Source of the DNA: Flavobacteriales bacterium CG_4_9_14_3_um_filter_40_17
GTDB taxonomy: Bacteria; Bacteroidota; Bacteroidia; Flavobacteriales; Flavobacteriaceae
Direction: 5' to 3'
NCBI GenBank assembly: GCA_002790195.1
Contig: PFUR01000007.1
Location: 1 to 60,421, forward strand
Length of the DNA stretch: 60,421 nucleotides
The position numbers were made by a program, and so were the translations under genes. This document shows, piece by piece, positions 7,860-37,727 of this stretch (its first letter is position 1; each line of letters starts with the position of its first letter). The notes under the pieces were generated by a model, which was given only the letters and a program-made list of their open reading frames with translations, searched no databases and was not told where the DNA came from.

Positions 7860-8070
7860 TTTGAAATTGTTTAAATATTCAGGATTGAAAATTGTATTGA
7901 TAATATAGGCTTTAAAAAAAAATTACTGAAAAGAATTGTACAAATATCATAACTTTTGTGGTGCAAAAAGACGCAAAAATTACTGCTTGTTCTACCATTT
8001 TTACGGATTACACATCATATTTAGATTTAGGTATTGTAGAATTGCTAATTTGTTTCAAACAAGTTTAAAA

Positions 8071-33464: not shown

Positions 33465-33917
33465 TCAGTAGCTTTTAAAATATTTGAAGGGTACAAACAA
33501 CATTCCAAAACATTCTCCTTGCTCTTTACCTAAATGTTTGTGATGAATTTTATGGGCTCTTCGAATTCCTCGTGCATACCAATTGTCTGCATTTCTAAAC
33601 AATTTGAATCGCTGGTGGATAAAAATATCGTGAACCAAAAAGTAAGTTAGCCCATACGCGAAAATTCCCAATCCGATAGGCAAGCCCATCCACAAATAGC
33701 CAAAGTGCCAAAGGGAAATAAAAGTCATACTTACAACAGCGTAGAAGATAAAAAACACATCGTTTCGCTCGAACCATGAGTTGTGGTCTTTGCGATGATG
33801 GTCACTGTGTAGCGACCAAAGGAAACCGTGCATAACGAACTTGTGTGTAAACCAAGCCATGAACTCCATGAGACAAAAAGTAAGTAGAAATACGGCTATC
33901 CAGATTAGAGCAAACAT
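33465..33917 (-). CDS. crtZ: Beta-carotene hydroxylase CrtZ
   Basis: Membrane di-iron hydroxylase of 150 residues in the fatty-acid-hydroxylase superfamily. The His clusters that bind iron are visible: HKFVMHG, HSDHHRKDH, HDIFIHQRF and HKIHHKHLGKEQGECFGML. There are about three to four hydrophobic helices. CrtZ adds hydroxyl groups to the beta-ionone rings of beta-carotene to give zeaxanthin. It is the last gene of the crtI-crtB-crtZ operon, 23 bp after crtB. It implies that a beta-cyclised carotenoid is made, although no lycopene cyclase is in the window. Confidence 0.92.
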   Translation of the reverse strand: MFALIWIAVFLLTFCLMEFMAWFTHKFVMHGFLWSLHSDHHRKDHNSWFERNDVFFIFYAVVSMTFISLWHFGYLWMGLPIGLGIFAYGLTYFLVHDIFIHQRFKLFRNADNWYARGIRRAHKIHHKHLGKEQGECFGMLFVPFKYFKSY

Positions 33918-33940: not shown

Positions 33941-34780
33941 TTATAAAATATTCAAACGGTATCGCATATAACTTTGTGCAAGCAAACCAAACTTTTCATA
34001 ATTTGGCACTCGGATTCGCGTGTTTTTGATTTCGACAGAAGGAGTTTTTTTTAATTTTTTCAAAAGACTGAGATAGTAAACATAAGCTGTGTACACTCCC
34101 AAACGAGCTTCAACGGGAAGTCTGATGATGCCCTGATATGCTTGTTTGAAGTCTATTTCGATTTCTTCAATGAGTTTTAATTTCGATTTTTCATCCAGTT
34201 CATCTAGATTGACTCCCGGAAAATAGGAACGGTTTAGTAGGTCGTGATCGGCTTTTAAATCCCGCAAAAAATTTACTTTTTGAAATGCCGAACCAAGCTT
34301 GACCGCTTGCTCCTTTAGCTGGTCATACCTATTCGCATCACCATTTACAAATACTTTCAAGCACATCAAACCGACTACATCTGCTGAACCATAAATGTAT
34401 TCTTGATATTCCTGCTGAGTTTTGTAAACACTTTTGCGCAAATCTAATCGCATGCTGTGCATGAAAGACTTGACGGTTTCAAATTCGAGTTTGTACTTGT
34501 GATAGGTATGCTGAAATGCATTTAAAACAGGATTTAAACTTACCTTTTTGTTTAAGGCATCGTAAAGTTGGTTTTCAAAATCATTAAAAAGATCTTCTTG
34601 TTGGTAACCCTGAAAAGAATCTACGATTTCATCAGCCAATCGGACAAATCCATAGATATTGTAAATATCTTGCCGAATACTTGAAGCCAACAAACGGGAA
34701 GCTACTGAAAAAGAGGTACTGTAAGTTTTAGTTACTTGGTAGCTAAAGGAGAACGAAACCTGGTCGAAGAGTGCTTTCAT
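33941..34780 (-). CDS. crtB: Phytoene synthase CrtB
   Basis: Squalene/phytoene synthase family protein of 279 residues that joins two geranylgeranyl diphosphates into phytoene. The first Asp-rich motif is RLADEIVD (DEIVD) and the second is FQKVNFLRDLKADHD. SVASRLLASSIRQDIYNIYGFVRLAD, YGSADVVGLMCLKVF and RSYFPGVNLDEL are also typical. It starts 7 bp after crtI. The C-terminus (YLSLLKKLKK...RIRVPNYEKFGLLAQSYMR) is the usual Bacteroidetes form. Confidence 0.94.
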   Translation of the reverse strand: MKALFDQVSFSFSYQVTKTYSTSFSVASRLLASSIRQDIYNIYGFVRLADEIVDSFQGYQQEDLFNDFENQLYDALNKKVSLNPVLNAFQHTYHKYKLEFETVKSFMHSMRLDLRKSVYKTQQEYQEYIYGSADVVGLMCLKVFVNGDANRYDQLKEQAVKLGSAFQKVNFLRDLKADHDLLNRSYFPGVNLDELDEKSKLKLIEEIEIDFKQAYQGIIRLPVEARLGVYTAYVYYLSLLKKLKKTPSVEIKNTRIRVPNYEKFGLLAQSYMRYRLNIL

Positions 34781-34787
34781 GATTTTT

Positions 34788-36266
34788 TTAGTTAGATTCG
34801 ATGGTTATGTTATGATGTTTTTGAATCAGTTCTGATACCAATTTACCGGATATCAATGCAGGCGGAACACCCGGCCCCGGGACGGTTAATTGACCTGTAA
34901 AATATAAATTCTTCACCTTTTTACTTTTTAATTTGGGCCTCAAAAAAGCAGTCTGAAAGAGTGTGTTTGCCAAACCATAGGCATTTCCTTTGTAAGAATT
35001 ATACTCAGAAACAAAATCATTCACACAAAACGAAGACTTAAAAAGTACATGATTTTTCACTTTTTGGTTGGTTAAATGTTCAAATCTACTCAATATTTTT
35101 TCAAAATATACTGATCTTATTTTTTCAGAATCAGCAATTCCCGGTGCTAACGGTATTAAAAAAACCGCTGCTTCCTGACCTTTAGGCGCAAAACTTTCGT
35201 CTGTTTTAGACGGAAAACTTGCATAAAACAGAGGCTCTTCCGGCCAATTGGGTTTGTCGTAAATACTTTCGGCGTGTATGTCAAAATCGACATCAAAAAA
35301 CAAGGTATGGTGACAAACATTTTCAATTTTTTTATCAAAACCTACATAAAACAACAAAGATGAAGGCGCAAATATTTTACGATTCCAATAATCCTCCGAA
35401 TACATTCGATAGTTTGGTTGTAAGAGCGTTTCCGTATGGTGATAATCGGCACCGGACAAAACAATTTCGGTTTTCACGTCTTCCCCATTAACCGTTATAC
35501 TTGTTGCCATGTCCGACTTCACATGAATAGCAGTTACCGCTGCGTTGTAAACAAATCGTACTCCAAAACTCTCGGCCAGCTTCACCATGGCTTCCACCAC
35601 ACTGTACATGCCGTTTACAGGATGAAAAGTGCCCAAACCAAAATCAGCTTGATTCATGAAGCTATAAAACGCCGGAGTTTGGCTTGGTTTTGCACCTAAA
35701 AATAGGACAGGGAATTCAAGAATTTGAATTAGTTTTCTGTTTGTAAAACGCCTTCTGACTTCTCTGCTGATGGTACTTGCGAACTGGTCCAACTTCTGAA
35801 TCGTTTGGGAAGTAATTAATTCTAAAGGGGAAACACCTGGTCGATAGACCAAATTTTTGATGGCAATATCATAATTTTCTTGAGCCATCTTCATGAATTT
35901 ATACAATTCGAGAGAAGAACCTTTTTCTATTCTTTCGAAGGACTTCATGATTTTTTCAAGTGAATCTTCTATTTTCACCGTATCATCTTTACCAAAATAA
36001 ACCTGATATGCCGGATTGAGCTTAATCAACGCGTAATAATCAGATGGTAATTTATCGAAATCAGCAAAAAATCTTTCGAAAACGTCCGGCATCCAATACC
36101 AAGTTGGTCCCATATCAAATTTAAAACCTTCTTGTGACAATTGACGGGCACGTCCGCCGGGAGTTGCATTTTTTTCGTAAACCGTTACCCCATAGCCACG
36201 CTTGGCCAAATAACACGCCGCAGAAAGGGATGAAAACCCCGAACCTAAGATGGAAATTTCTTTCAT
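34788..36266 (-). CDS. crtI: Phytoene desaturase CrtI
   Basis: FAD-dependent desaturase of 492 residues that converts phytoene to lycopene. The N-terminal dinucleotide-binding motif is ILGSGFSSLSAACYLAKRGYGVTVYEKNATPGGRARQ. FDMGPTWYWMPDVFERFF follows, and the C-terminal signature is NLYFTGQLTVPGPGVPPALISGKLVSELI. It is the first gene of the crt operon, 50 bp downstream of merR. It has its own promoter (TACTTTTG at 36278-36285) lying inside a palindrome shared with the merR promoter, so it can be transcribed independently of merR. Confidence 0.95.
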   Translation of the reverse strand: MKEISILGSGFSSLSAACYLAKRGYGVTVYEKNATPGGRARQLSQEGFKFDMGPTWYWMPDVFERFFADFDKLPSDYYALIKLNPAYQVYFGKDDTVKIEDSLEKIMKSFERIEKGSSLELYKFMKMAQENYDIAIKNLVYRPGVSPLELITSQTIQKLDQFASTISREVRRRFTNRKLIQILEFPVLFLGAKPSQTPAFYSFMNQADFGLGTFHPVNGMYSVVEAMVKLAESFGVRFVYNAAVTAIHVKSDMATSITVNGEDVKTEIVLSGADYHHTETLLQPNYRMYSEDYWNRKIFAPSSLLFYVGFDKKIENVCHHTLFFDVDFDIHAESIYDKPNWPEEPLFYASFPSKTDESFAPKGQEAAVFLIPLAPGIADSEKIRSVYFEKILSRFEHLTNQKVKNHVLFKSSFCVNDFVSEYNSYKGNAYGLANTLFQTAFLRPKLKSKKVKNLYFTGQLTVPGPGVPPALISGKLVSELIQKHHNITIESN

Positions 36267-36269
36267 ATA

Positions 36270-36301
36270 TTGTTTAACAAAAGTATATATAACTTAAACA
36301 A
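36270..36301. promoter_or_regulatory. Candidate operator and promoter of crtI
   Basis: Palindrome TTGTTTAA (36270-36277), 16 bp, TTAAACAA (36294-36301). The minus-strand -7 element TACTTTTG (36278-36285) lies inside the 16-bp centre, directly beside one arm, so a bound protein would cover it. A third half-site, TGTTTAAC, lies at 36310-36317. The same arms with the same 16-bp spacing occur at the merR promoter (37210-37239). Probably bound by the neighbouring MerR-type regulator. Confidence 0.6.
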
Positions 36302-36316
36302 AAATAAAATGTTTAA

Positions 36317-37210
36317 CTAAATATTTTGAATTAGCTCCACGATGGTCTGAAAAACTTTAACATTAGACGGTAATACACCTTCAAATTGGTTTGCCTGCCT
36401 ACCAAGTAACCAAAGTTTGTGTTTGTTTTCCGCATTGATTTCTTTTGAAAACTGATCTAAATATCCTTGTACCTCTGCTGGAGATGGTTTGACCGTAAAG
36501 TAAGAAATAAAAATAACTTTTTCAAAACAATGATTGAAATCATTTAAAGATTCCAAAGGCAAAGATTGTCCCATATAAATAGCTTTGTACCCTCGCCGAA
36601 GCAGTTCATAATAAAGATAAGAAATGCCGATATCATGTATTTCGTTTTCGGGTAAGTACAAAATAAATATATCACTTTCGGAATAAGAATTGTTTTCGCC
36701 GAGAACTTTTTGAACATGAGAAAGAATTAATTGTTTTATCTGTACGGTTATAAAATGTTCATGGGTAGGCCTTACCGTATTCATTTGCCAAAGCAATCCG
36801 AGTTCGCTCAGAAAAGGAATAAATATATTTATAAATATGTATGTAAAGTCATGTTTTTCAGCAAGTTTACCATATGTTTTTTTAAAAAGATTGACATCAA
36901 AATTAATCATTGCTATTTTAAAATCCGATATGGCAACGCTTTTAGATAAATTTTGCCCGGACAAAGAATTTACATGAGATACTATTTCTTCAGGCTCGAA
37001 CCTTGCTATTTTGGAAATTTTATATCCGTTTTGGTAGAGATGGGTAATGTTGAGCAGTTTTTGTAAATTAGTCAGATTGTAATACCTTATGTTTGAATCT
37101 GTCCTATCAGGCTTCAAGAGATTGTACCTTTTTTCCCAAATCCGGAGGGTATGTGCCTTGATGCCACTAAGATTTTCAAGGTCTTTTATACTAAAAATTG
37201 ACTTAACCAT
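36317..37210 (-). CDS. MerR-type regulator with cobalamin-binding domain (CarH/LitR-like)
   Basis: Protein of 297 residues. The N-terminal MerR winged helix has FSIKDLENLSGIKAHTLRIWEKRYNLLKP (about 5-34). A helical bundle follows with W141-x9-E151-H152, then a cobalamin-binding Rossmann domain with E190-x-H192-x-x-G195, a Ser at 236 in the SxL position and G270. These are the signatures of adenosylcobalamin photoreceptors that repress carotenoid genes in the dark and release DNA in light. The residue after W141 is Gln; the Thermus CarH upper-ligand His, as I recall it, sits there, so the photochemistry may differ. The ATG at 37210 touches a palindrome shared with crtI. The gene sits directly upstream of crtI-crtB-crtZ. 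Confidence 0.88.
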   Translation of the reverse strand: MVKSIFSIKDLENLSGIKAHTLRIWEKRYNLLKPDRTDSNIRYYNLTNLQKLLNITHLYQNGYKISKIARFEPEEIVSHVNSLSGQNLSKSVAISDFKIAMINFDVNLFKKTYGKLAEKHDFTYIFINIFIPFLSELGLLWQMNTVRPTHEHFITVQIKQLILSHVQKVLGENNSYSESDIFILYLPENEIHDIGISYLYYELLRRGYKAIYMGQSLPLESLNDFNHCFEKVIFISYFTVKPSPAEVQGYLDQFSKEINAENKHKLWLLGRQANQFEGVLPSNVKVFQTIVELIQNI

Positions 37211-37245
37211 GTTTAATTTATCTTGATTTAAATTAAACAAAACTA
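37210..37245. promoter_or_regulatory. Candidate operator and promoter of the merR gene
   Basis: Arms TGTTTAATTT (37210-37219) and AAATTAAACA (37230-37239) form a 10-bp perfect inverted repeat. Its inner core, TGTTTAA-N16-TTAAACA, matches the crtI operator in both sequence and spacing. The minus-strand -7 element TAGTTTTG lies at 37238-37245 and shares its last bases with the outer arm, so binding would cover the start of transcription. This suggests autorepression. Confidence 0.6.
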
Positions 37246-37290: not shown

Positions 37291-37296
37291 ATTTTG

Positions 37297-37380
37297 TGCC
37301 CAGAACAAGAATCGAACTTGCACATCCTTACGGACACATGGCCCTCAACCATGCCTGTCTACCAGTTTCAGCACCTGGGC
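37297..37380 (-). tRNA. tRNA-Leu (GAG)
   Basis: 84-nt class II tRNA with acceptor stem GCCCAGG/TCTGGGC (one G-T pair), discriminator A and a long variable arm. The anticodon loop TTGAGGG lies between CATGG and CCATG, giving anticodon GAG. The T-loop is AGTTCGATTCT. Last tRNA of a four-gene operon. Confidence 0.93.
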
Positions 37381-37393
37381 GATTGTGTTGTTG

Positions 37394-37466
37394 TGACCCG
37401 TCTGGGGATCGAACCCAGGACCCCAACATTAAGAGTGTCGTGCTCTACCAGCTGAGCTAACGAGTC
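37394..37466 (-). tRNA. tRNA-Lys (CTT)
   Basis: 73-nt tRNA with acceptor GACTCGT/ACGGGTC and D-arm GCTCAGCTGGTAGAGC. The anticodon loop CTCTTAA gives CTT, and the T-arm is CTGGGTTCGATCCCCAG. It is nearly identical to the two TTT copies upstream except in the anticodon arm and one T-arm base. Confidence 0.95.
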
Positions 37467-37523
37467 AGAAAATTTTTTGATTCTCCAAAACTACCAATAT
37501 TTCTATTATTTTTTAAATAAAAG

Positions 37524-37596
37524 TGACCCGTCTGGGGCTCGAACCCAGGACCCCAACATTAAAAGTGTTGTGCTCTACCGGCTGAGCTAACGAGTC
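37524..37596 (-). tRNA. tRNA-Lys (TTT), copy 2
   Basis: 73-nt tRNA with anticodon loop CTTTTAA (anticodon TTT). It differs from copy 1 by one base in the D-loop region (GCCGGTAGAGC instead of GCTGGTAGAGC). T-arm CTGGGTTCGAGCCCCAG. Confidence 0.95.
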
Positions 37597-37654
37597 AAAA
37601 ACTAAATTTCAGATTTATAAAAACGTAAAATCACTTTTTAAAAAATAAAAAAAG

Positions 37655-37727
37655 TGACCCGTCTGGGGCTCGAACCCAGGACCCCAACATTAAAAGTGTT
37701 GTGCTCTACCAGCTGAGCTAACGAGTC
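37655..37727 (-). tRNA. tRNA-Lys (TTT), copy 1
   Basis: 73-nt tRNA with anticodon loop CTTTTAA, acceptor GACTCGT/ACGGGTC and T-arm CTGGGTTCGAGCCCCAG. It is the first gene of the tRNA operon, 21 bp downstream of the -7 element. Confidence 0.95.

Follow-up and report, generated by a model that had tools for sequence, protein, structure and literature searches.

A long inverted repeat at carotenoid, photolyase and regulator promoters of Flavobacteriaceae, the probable operator of a diverged CarH-like repressor of the vitamin B12 type

The closest described counterparts of the system treated here are regulators of the MerR type (publications given by PMC number are cited from excerpts throughout). 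In CarH (class I LitR; Thermus thermophilus, Bacillus megaterium and Myxococcus), a MerR helix-turn-helix (HTH) domain is joined to a B12-binding part made of a four-helix bundle and a Rossmann fold, with Wx9EH, which caps the adenosyl group, and ExHxxG as signatures (PMC8156234); its gene lies beside crt genes, and its operator, placed on the promoter, consists of three or four tandem 11-base-pair (bp) direct repeats with the conserved core TnnACA (PMC8156234, PMC9304148). The paralogous CarA of Myxococcus xanthus acts at a crt promoter, is without Wx9EH according to the excerpts and is removed by CarS; inverted repeats were once proposed in its operator (PMC8156234, PMC9304148), for which direct repeats are now favoured (PMC9304148). 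Class II LitR proteins (PplR1-3 of Pseudomonas putida, PmlR2 of P. mendocina) are described as keeping only the four-helix B12 sub-domain and as having the operator T(G/A)TACA-N12-TGTA(C/T)A, with PmlR2 being switched by a LOV protein (PMC9758184). From the marine Bacteroidetes, MliR of Bizionia argentinensis is a MerR-like regulator whose excerpted description mentions no B12 domain (PMC9478572), and in the relative Chryseobacterium lacus carotenoids are light-induced by a mechanism of unknown pattern (PMC7064467). Among the matches listed from the open-licence literature, as far as excerpted, there is no description of the motif reported below or of such a light regulator in Bacteroidota. 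Here, we analyze an inverted repeat, TGTTTAA-N16-TTAAACA, at the promoters of crtI and of an adjacent merR gene in a stretch of 60,421 nucleotides, referred to as the window, from Flavobacteriales bacterium CG_4_9_14_3_um_filter_40_17 (Flavobacteriaceae; assembly GCA_002790195.1, contig PFUR01000007.1, positions 1 to 60,421 of the forward strand). The repeat is likely the operator of an adenosylcobalamin-based dark repressor, the adjacent CarH-like MerR protein, that is released by light; put more generally, it very probably marks genes kept off by a vitamin-B12-type regulator, most likely until light comes.

Scanning the window with up to three mismatches allowed returned two exact matches to the repeat (Table 1) and no copy with one mismatch, while a first-order Markov model lets expect about 0.002 exact pairs. 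The 13 matches obtained at up to three mismatches correspond to chance level (11.1 expected). The 7-mer half-site has 16 copies in the window, 12 of them outside both pairs, with 22 expected by chance. Lone half-sites are found, for example, at 7868, 23640, 24854 and 36310–36316, and pairing at N16 occurs only at the crtI and merR promoters. A first-pass annotation made from the letters of this DNA had described the same palindrome with the same spacing at both promoters, half-sites but no further pair elsewhere in the window, and –7 elements lying within the centre of the crtI copy and abutting an arm of the merR copy; all of this was confirmed, both palindromes lying exactly at the positions given there. 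At crtI, the site extends to 8-bp arms, TTGTTTAA-N16-TTAAACAA, and the start codon ATG (36266–36264) lies 4 bp beyond the operator, whereas the ATG of merR (37210–37208) shares its A with the second operator. The extra half-site at 36310–36316, 9 bp beyond the crtI operator, has no counterpart in the profile built from 15 crtI sites.

The window represents contig 29 of a draft genome of 2.69 Mb (87 contigs, 99.5% complete), in which three exact sites and no match to a control, the motif pattern read backwards, are found. The third site precedes a three-gene row encoding a 155-residue protein, a short-chain dehydrogenase and a DNA photolyase; hence, the exact sites of this genome are held by crtI, merR and a photolyase operon. 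The 155-residue protein, which we take to be an SRPBCC protein, has no match in Pfam or NCBIfam. Degenerate matches were excluded from the analysis, as up to two mismatches gives 53 places in the genome compared to 87 for the backwards control. Of the four one-mismatch places (C13:558, C43, C54 and C65, named by contig), C43 and C54 are within open reading frames (ORFs), and C13:558, in front of a TetR-like ORF that lies at the contig end, looks like a genuine site. Relaxing the right arm to WTRAACA adds C57 and C65, compared to one control match, and neither is claimed as a site. The relaxed match on contig 57 (L259:2551-2580) is located between endonuclease III-like and peroxiredoxin-like ORFs, both named by eye.

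In 299 Flavobacteriaceae genomes, 855 exact sites were counted in 235 genomes compared to 36 for the backwards control (about 0.12 per genome), where these numbers refer to sites and not to genes and, like all counts given here, are inflated by shared descent. In a sample of 60 genomes, the N16 spacing yielded 105 sites and five control matches, while the 24 other gaps within 6–30, evaluated only as a pool, yielded 139 sites at a control value of 152. With 105 of the 244 pairs among spacings 6–30, the 16-bp spacing is special, the others being at control level when pooled.

For relating the sites to the regulator, MerR matches were classed as strong (E < 1e-50), distant (1e-16 to 1e-47), weak (above 1e-6) or none, with these limits, as well as the line at 1e-40 used below, drawn after the E-values were seen. 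A strong orthologue is encoded in 220 of the 299 genomes, and 217 of these possess at least one site. Considering only genomes with a completeness of at least 95%, sites occur in 191 of 194 that encode the MerR orthologue versus none of 17 with no or a weak match. Outside the family, 20 of 24 genomes with a MerR match at E < 1e-40 have the site versus 5 of 103 others, as counted by hand in a set of 148 genomes drawn from across the order, which partly overlaps with the 60-genome spacing sample. Another protein that could bind the repeat is the TetR_C_23 regulator, whose gene in front of an ABC1 kinase gene also carries the site; this gene has 17 of the sampled sites ahead of it and is nearest to 15 of the 112 evaluated below. 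TetR proteins bind palindromes and, at any completeness, sites are present in 4 of 10 genomes having TetR but no strong or distant MerR versus 6 of 47 having neither (the 22 distant-MerR genomes were excluded from this comparison and from the Fisher test). However, the four genomes in question are at most 91% complete, and at a completeness of at least 95% the site is found in 30 of 31 genomes with MerR and without TetR but in none of 4 with TetR and without MerR. As the site tracks MerR and not TetR at high completeness, MerR is the better candidate for the binding protein, and a TetR_C_23 operator, largely refuted by this co-occurrence, is very improbable.

At the regulator gene itself, an N16 pair is found upstream of merR in 89 of 111 loci, the window included, with the right arm being exactly TTAAACA in 8 and another DTRAACA sequence in 81 cases; the 111 loci include the same or nearly the same organisms, as L021 and L178 show identical flanks. 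Many of these right arms run into the start codon, giving ATGAAC or GTGAAC. Absence of the paired motif from relatives had been named in the first-pass annotation as evidence that would speak against an operator, and the outcome is in favour of conservation, although the right arm at merR mostly deviates from the exact sequence and the majority of the named loci have no crtI site of their own. At L144:2095-3030, the encoded MerR protein is only about 32% identical to that of the window, yet an exact site precedes its ORF by 1 bp, indicating that considerable divergence of the protein can leave the operator intact.

The MerR protein of the window shows the Pfam domains MerR_1 and B12-binding_2. 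In an alignment of 51 such proteins (A1), all members match MerR_1, W141 and E151 are invariant, and H152 is conserved in at least 90%. The Wx9EH motif is present in 110 of 111 MerR proteins, including the one from the window, and E/DxHxxG in 107 of 111. The nearest sequences in the PDB are LitR/CarH from T. thermophilus (E about 4e-13). In line with this, a structure predicted at a mean pLDDT (predicted local distance difference test) of 91 retrieves CarH first in Foldseek, with a structural alignment at about 18% identity, and aligns to CarH-type cobalamin domains with Z of about 17 over about 195 residues (VIA-align), covering both B12 sub-folds. Judged from sequence and model, the MerR protein is a diverged CarH relative and not a certified CarH. 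Besides, a cobalamin adenosyltransferase gene is encoded in the genome, which would allow adenosylcobalamin to be formed given a supply of cobalamin.

The degree of divergence bears on the signal, as the MerR protein might bind the site without adenosylcobalamin photolysis being involved, either acting independently of B12 like CarA of M. xanthus, depending for its release on a second protein, for instance a LOV protein as in class II LitR, or responding to oxidative stress. Several features point in this direction or speak against a photolytic repressor. The Rossmann part has diverged too far for PF02310, which is matched in none of the 51 aligned members, and the window protein scores 64 bits where the NCBIfam CarH equivalog NF052513 has its cut-off at 400. 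Moreover, the residue following the Trp is a nearly invariant Gln but His in T. thermophilus CarH, so that a bis-His light state like that of CarH (PMC8156234) could not arise in an identical manner. Within the family, CarA and PmlR2 work without B12 (PMC8156234, PMC9758184), and the relaxed site on contig 57 is beside a peroxiredoxin gene. On the other hand, the Wx9EH motif absent in CarA (PMC8156234) is retained almost throughout, as is E/DxHxxG, the model aligns over both CarH B12 sub-folds and the adenosyltransferase is present. Altogether, a signal other than photolysis of adenosylcobalamin appears unlikely, yet it is the most probable of the alternatives.

Target genes were evaluated in 100 stretches around listed sites from 32 genomes which, together with the genome of the window, amount to 113 sites in 33 genomes, naming target families from one representative per cluster. 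Outside gene bodies are 111 of the 113 sites, whereas the same loci give 22% for random positions and 66% for AT-rich 30-mers, the latter value indicating that AT content explains part of the site placement. It could consequently be suspected that the repeat arises from two AT-rich words paired by chance or belongs to the promoter sequence, considering also the AT-rich region and the TTTG-like promoter letters within the half-site. This explanation is refuted by the low expectation for the window, the excess of N16 over other spacings and the co-occurrence with MerR, and its probability is negligible. The finding of a gene start within 300 bp of 112 of the 113 sites was set aside, as the loose rule applied accepted start codons inside ORFs.

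When assigning 112 sites to their nearest gene, fasciclin-domain proteins are most frequent (26 sites in 24 loci), followed by crtI (15 sites), in most cases with crtB, the crtZ-like hydroxylase and a lycopene cyclase domain gene behind it, and by the TetR_C_23-ABC1 kinase genes (15 sites), several of which continue with genes for flavin reductase, NAD-epimerase/DUF2867 and photolyase. The operon combining TIGR03643/DUF2805 with GTP cyclohydrolase I (FolE) accounts for 11 sites, Porph_ging for 6, the short-chain dehydrogenase-photolyase operon for 5, DUF2452 for 4 and merR for 2, while others have three or fewer each. A photolyase-related protein (DPRP) is found in two target operons. The regulon is hence wider than crtI and merR. 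Both genes proposed as targets in the first-pass annotation indeed carry sites, but this set was drawn too narrowly in view of the further targets recurring in relatives. The TIGR03643-FolE operons start with a gene for a family of about 144 residues (L114:2530-2964 and 11 similar ones), the tested member of which gave no match to Pfam or NCBIfam. In a genome from another family of the order (L078:3001-3030), the site is located 15 bp before a gene resembling by eye a sigma-70/ECF (extracytoplasmic function) factor gene, which is followed by crtI and crtB, an arrangement suggestive of control relayed by a sigma factor.

A perfect –7 box, TAnnTTTG, is found between –20 and +45 of 69 of the 112 sites on the gene strand versus 11 on the opposite strand; in F. 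psychrophilum, this box sits at –12 to –5 (PMC9723704). Its offset from the site is +15 in 29 cases (crtI, fasciclin and Porph_ging), +35 in 17 (TetR and FolE operons), –6 in 12 and +4 in 5. For crtI, the offset of +15 applies to 14 of 15 sites, including that of the window, and the two window sites represent two kinds of placement, +15 at crtI and –6 at merR. Depending on the offset, the operator thus overlies the start site, the core promoter or the sequence immediately upstream. The offsets cluster at a 10.5-bp period with a vector strength of 0.84 over 76 offsets, homologous promoters being pooled, and of 0.74 over 32 family-offset pairs, i.e., when each gene family is counted once per offset. 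As the –6 class is also seen 7 times on the opposite strand, part of this phase comes from the own letters of the arm.

This placement bears on the mode of action. With a MerR-type HTH and sites overlapping promoters, the protein might be a classical activator untwisting an over-long promoter spacer. Spacer-twisting MerR activators, however, need one fixed operator place between the promoter boxes, while the sites described here are inside, upstream or downstream of the –7 box, mainly at the four offsets given above. Without a single fixed position relative to this box, repression by occlusion fits better, and activation by spacer twisting is improbable. Overall, the idea put forward in the first-pass annotation, an operator of the adjacent MerR/cobalamin regulator at crtI and merR, gains support at the sequence level, as the motif tracks MerR across genomes independently of TetR at high completeness and sits on core promoters.

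Compared with the described systems, the half-site TTAAACA contains the TnnACA core of CarH operators, and among the arms of the 112 sites, 32 right and 69 left ones match the full CarH repeat consensus nAnnTnnACAn. At 11-bp steps, the three places inspected per arm showed neither TnnACA nor its complement in excess at the 112 sites (3, 0, 0 and 1, 2, 0 versus a background of about 1). With CarH, the system shares the MerR HTH, the four-helix and Rossmann-like B12 folds, Wx9EH, ExHxxG, the vicinity to crt genes, the half-site core and an operator on the promoter, but two inverted half-sites 23 bp apart take the place of the tandem 11-bp repeats. With class II LitR, it has in common the paired TGT...ACA letters and a target set of photolyase, short-chain dehydrogenase, FolE and the regulator, whereas the pair is longer, the spacing is N16 and both the Rossmann-like fold and ExHxxG are present (PMC9758184). 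The resemblance to CarA extends to the position at a crt promoter and to the inverted repeats once considered there, and MliR is a MerR-like regulator from the same bacterial group. The operator thus consists of a known half-site core in an arrangement differing from those of CarH and class II LitR. Regarding the first-pass view of a motif unlike the known CarA/CarH sites, this holds for the arrangement but not for the half-site core, which is shared with CarH.

The genes surrounding the sites are compiled in Table 1. For the crtZ-like hydroxylase of the window, no Pfam match of its own was obtained at 0.001. A longer merR ORF starting with TTG was set aside, as the proteins of relatives begin at the position matching the ATG. 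Directly upstream of merR and on the same strand, one tRNA-Leu and three tRNA-Lys genes are encoded (37296–37727), from which read-through into merR is possible.

Table 1. Coordinates of operators, promoter elements and genes in the window.
Feature	Position	Strand	Basis
Operator 1, TGTTTAA-N16-TTAAACA, crtI promoter	36271..36300 (8-bp arms 36270-36301)		Window sequence and scan; same site before crtI in relatives
Operator 2, TGTTTAA-N16-TTAAACA, merR promoter, touching the merR start codon	37210..37239		Sequence and scan; N16 pair upstream of merR in relatives
crtI –7 element TACTTTTG, within the centre of operator 1, abutting an arm	36278..36285	minus	Sequence; TAnnTTTG at same offset in relatives
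merR –7 element TAGTTTTG, overlapping the last two bases of the operator 2 arm	37238..37245	minus	Sequence; offset –6 class
merR, CarH-like regulator (MerR HTH, B12-binding_2, Rossmann-like C-terminal fold; 297 residues), proposed binder of both operators	36317..37210	minus	Pfam, motifs, PDB search, structure model
crtI, phytoene desaturase-like, first gene behind operator 1	34788..36266	minus	Pfam amine oxidase/NAD-binding; name crtI from context
crtB, phytoene synthase	33941..34780	minus	SQS_PSY
crtZ-like hydroxylase	33465..33917	minus	By-eye likeness to the gene of relatives in the same place, which matches FA_hydroxylase

Considering the evidence from sites, genomes and protein, we infer that the MerR protein binds the repeat, represses from it, carries adenosylcobalamin and has light as its signal. 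In the dark, the cobalamin-bound protein, proposed to hold adenosylcobalamin and to be a dimer or tetramer, would sit on the two inverted TnnACA half-sites 23 bp apart and, by covering the core promoter, would keep RNA polymerase from crtI-crtB-crtZ, merR and the short-chain dehydrogenase-photolyase operon. Light would break the cobalt-carbon bond and make MerR let go of the DNA, upon which pigment, photolyase and fresh repressor would be produced together. Light is named as the signal mainly because photolyase, FolE, short-chain dehydrogenase and the regulator belong to the light-induced set of class II LitR in Pseudomonas (PMC9758184).

Beyond the protein features discussed above, this repressor model has to be weighed against a number of observations that do not favour it. 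Strong MerR orthologues without an exact site occur in 3 of 220 genomes (G022, G117 and G160), and only 8 of the 22 distant-MerR genomes have sites. Conversely, 8 of the 47 genomes lacking any MerR match carry sites, none of these eight exceeding 91% completeness, as do 2 of 10 weak-MerR genomes, with all ten of these site-bearing genomes being at most 94% complete. At merR, the right arm of the operator is a variant in 71 of 80 named relatives. A pair within 160 bp after merR and before the next gene was found at only 24 of the 111 merR loci, while at many others crtI comes shortly after merR, consistent with one promoter serving both. Lacking a perfect TAnnTTTG nearby are 43 of the 112 sites. 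Finally, we know of no tie to light of fasciclin, the commonest target (e.g., L170:3092-4075).

Taking a wider view, we cautiously lean towards Flavobacteriaceae and near relatives sharing a light regulon of a diverged B12 photoreceptor that would read a single long inverted repeat in place of tandem ones, located to either side of the –7 box or within it at about whole helical turns, with the DNA-bound oligomer adopting a geometry unlike that of the CarH tetramer. The inverted 23-bp arrangement raises the question of how a CarH-type oligomer binds two facing half-sites. Moreover, the site can be searched for in any genome of the family, giving a testable assignment for fasciclin, TetR_C_23-ABC1, Porph_ging and DUF2452 proteins.
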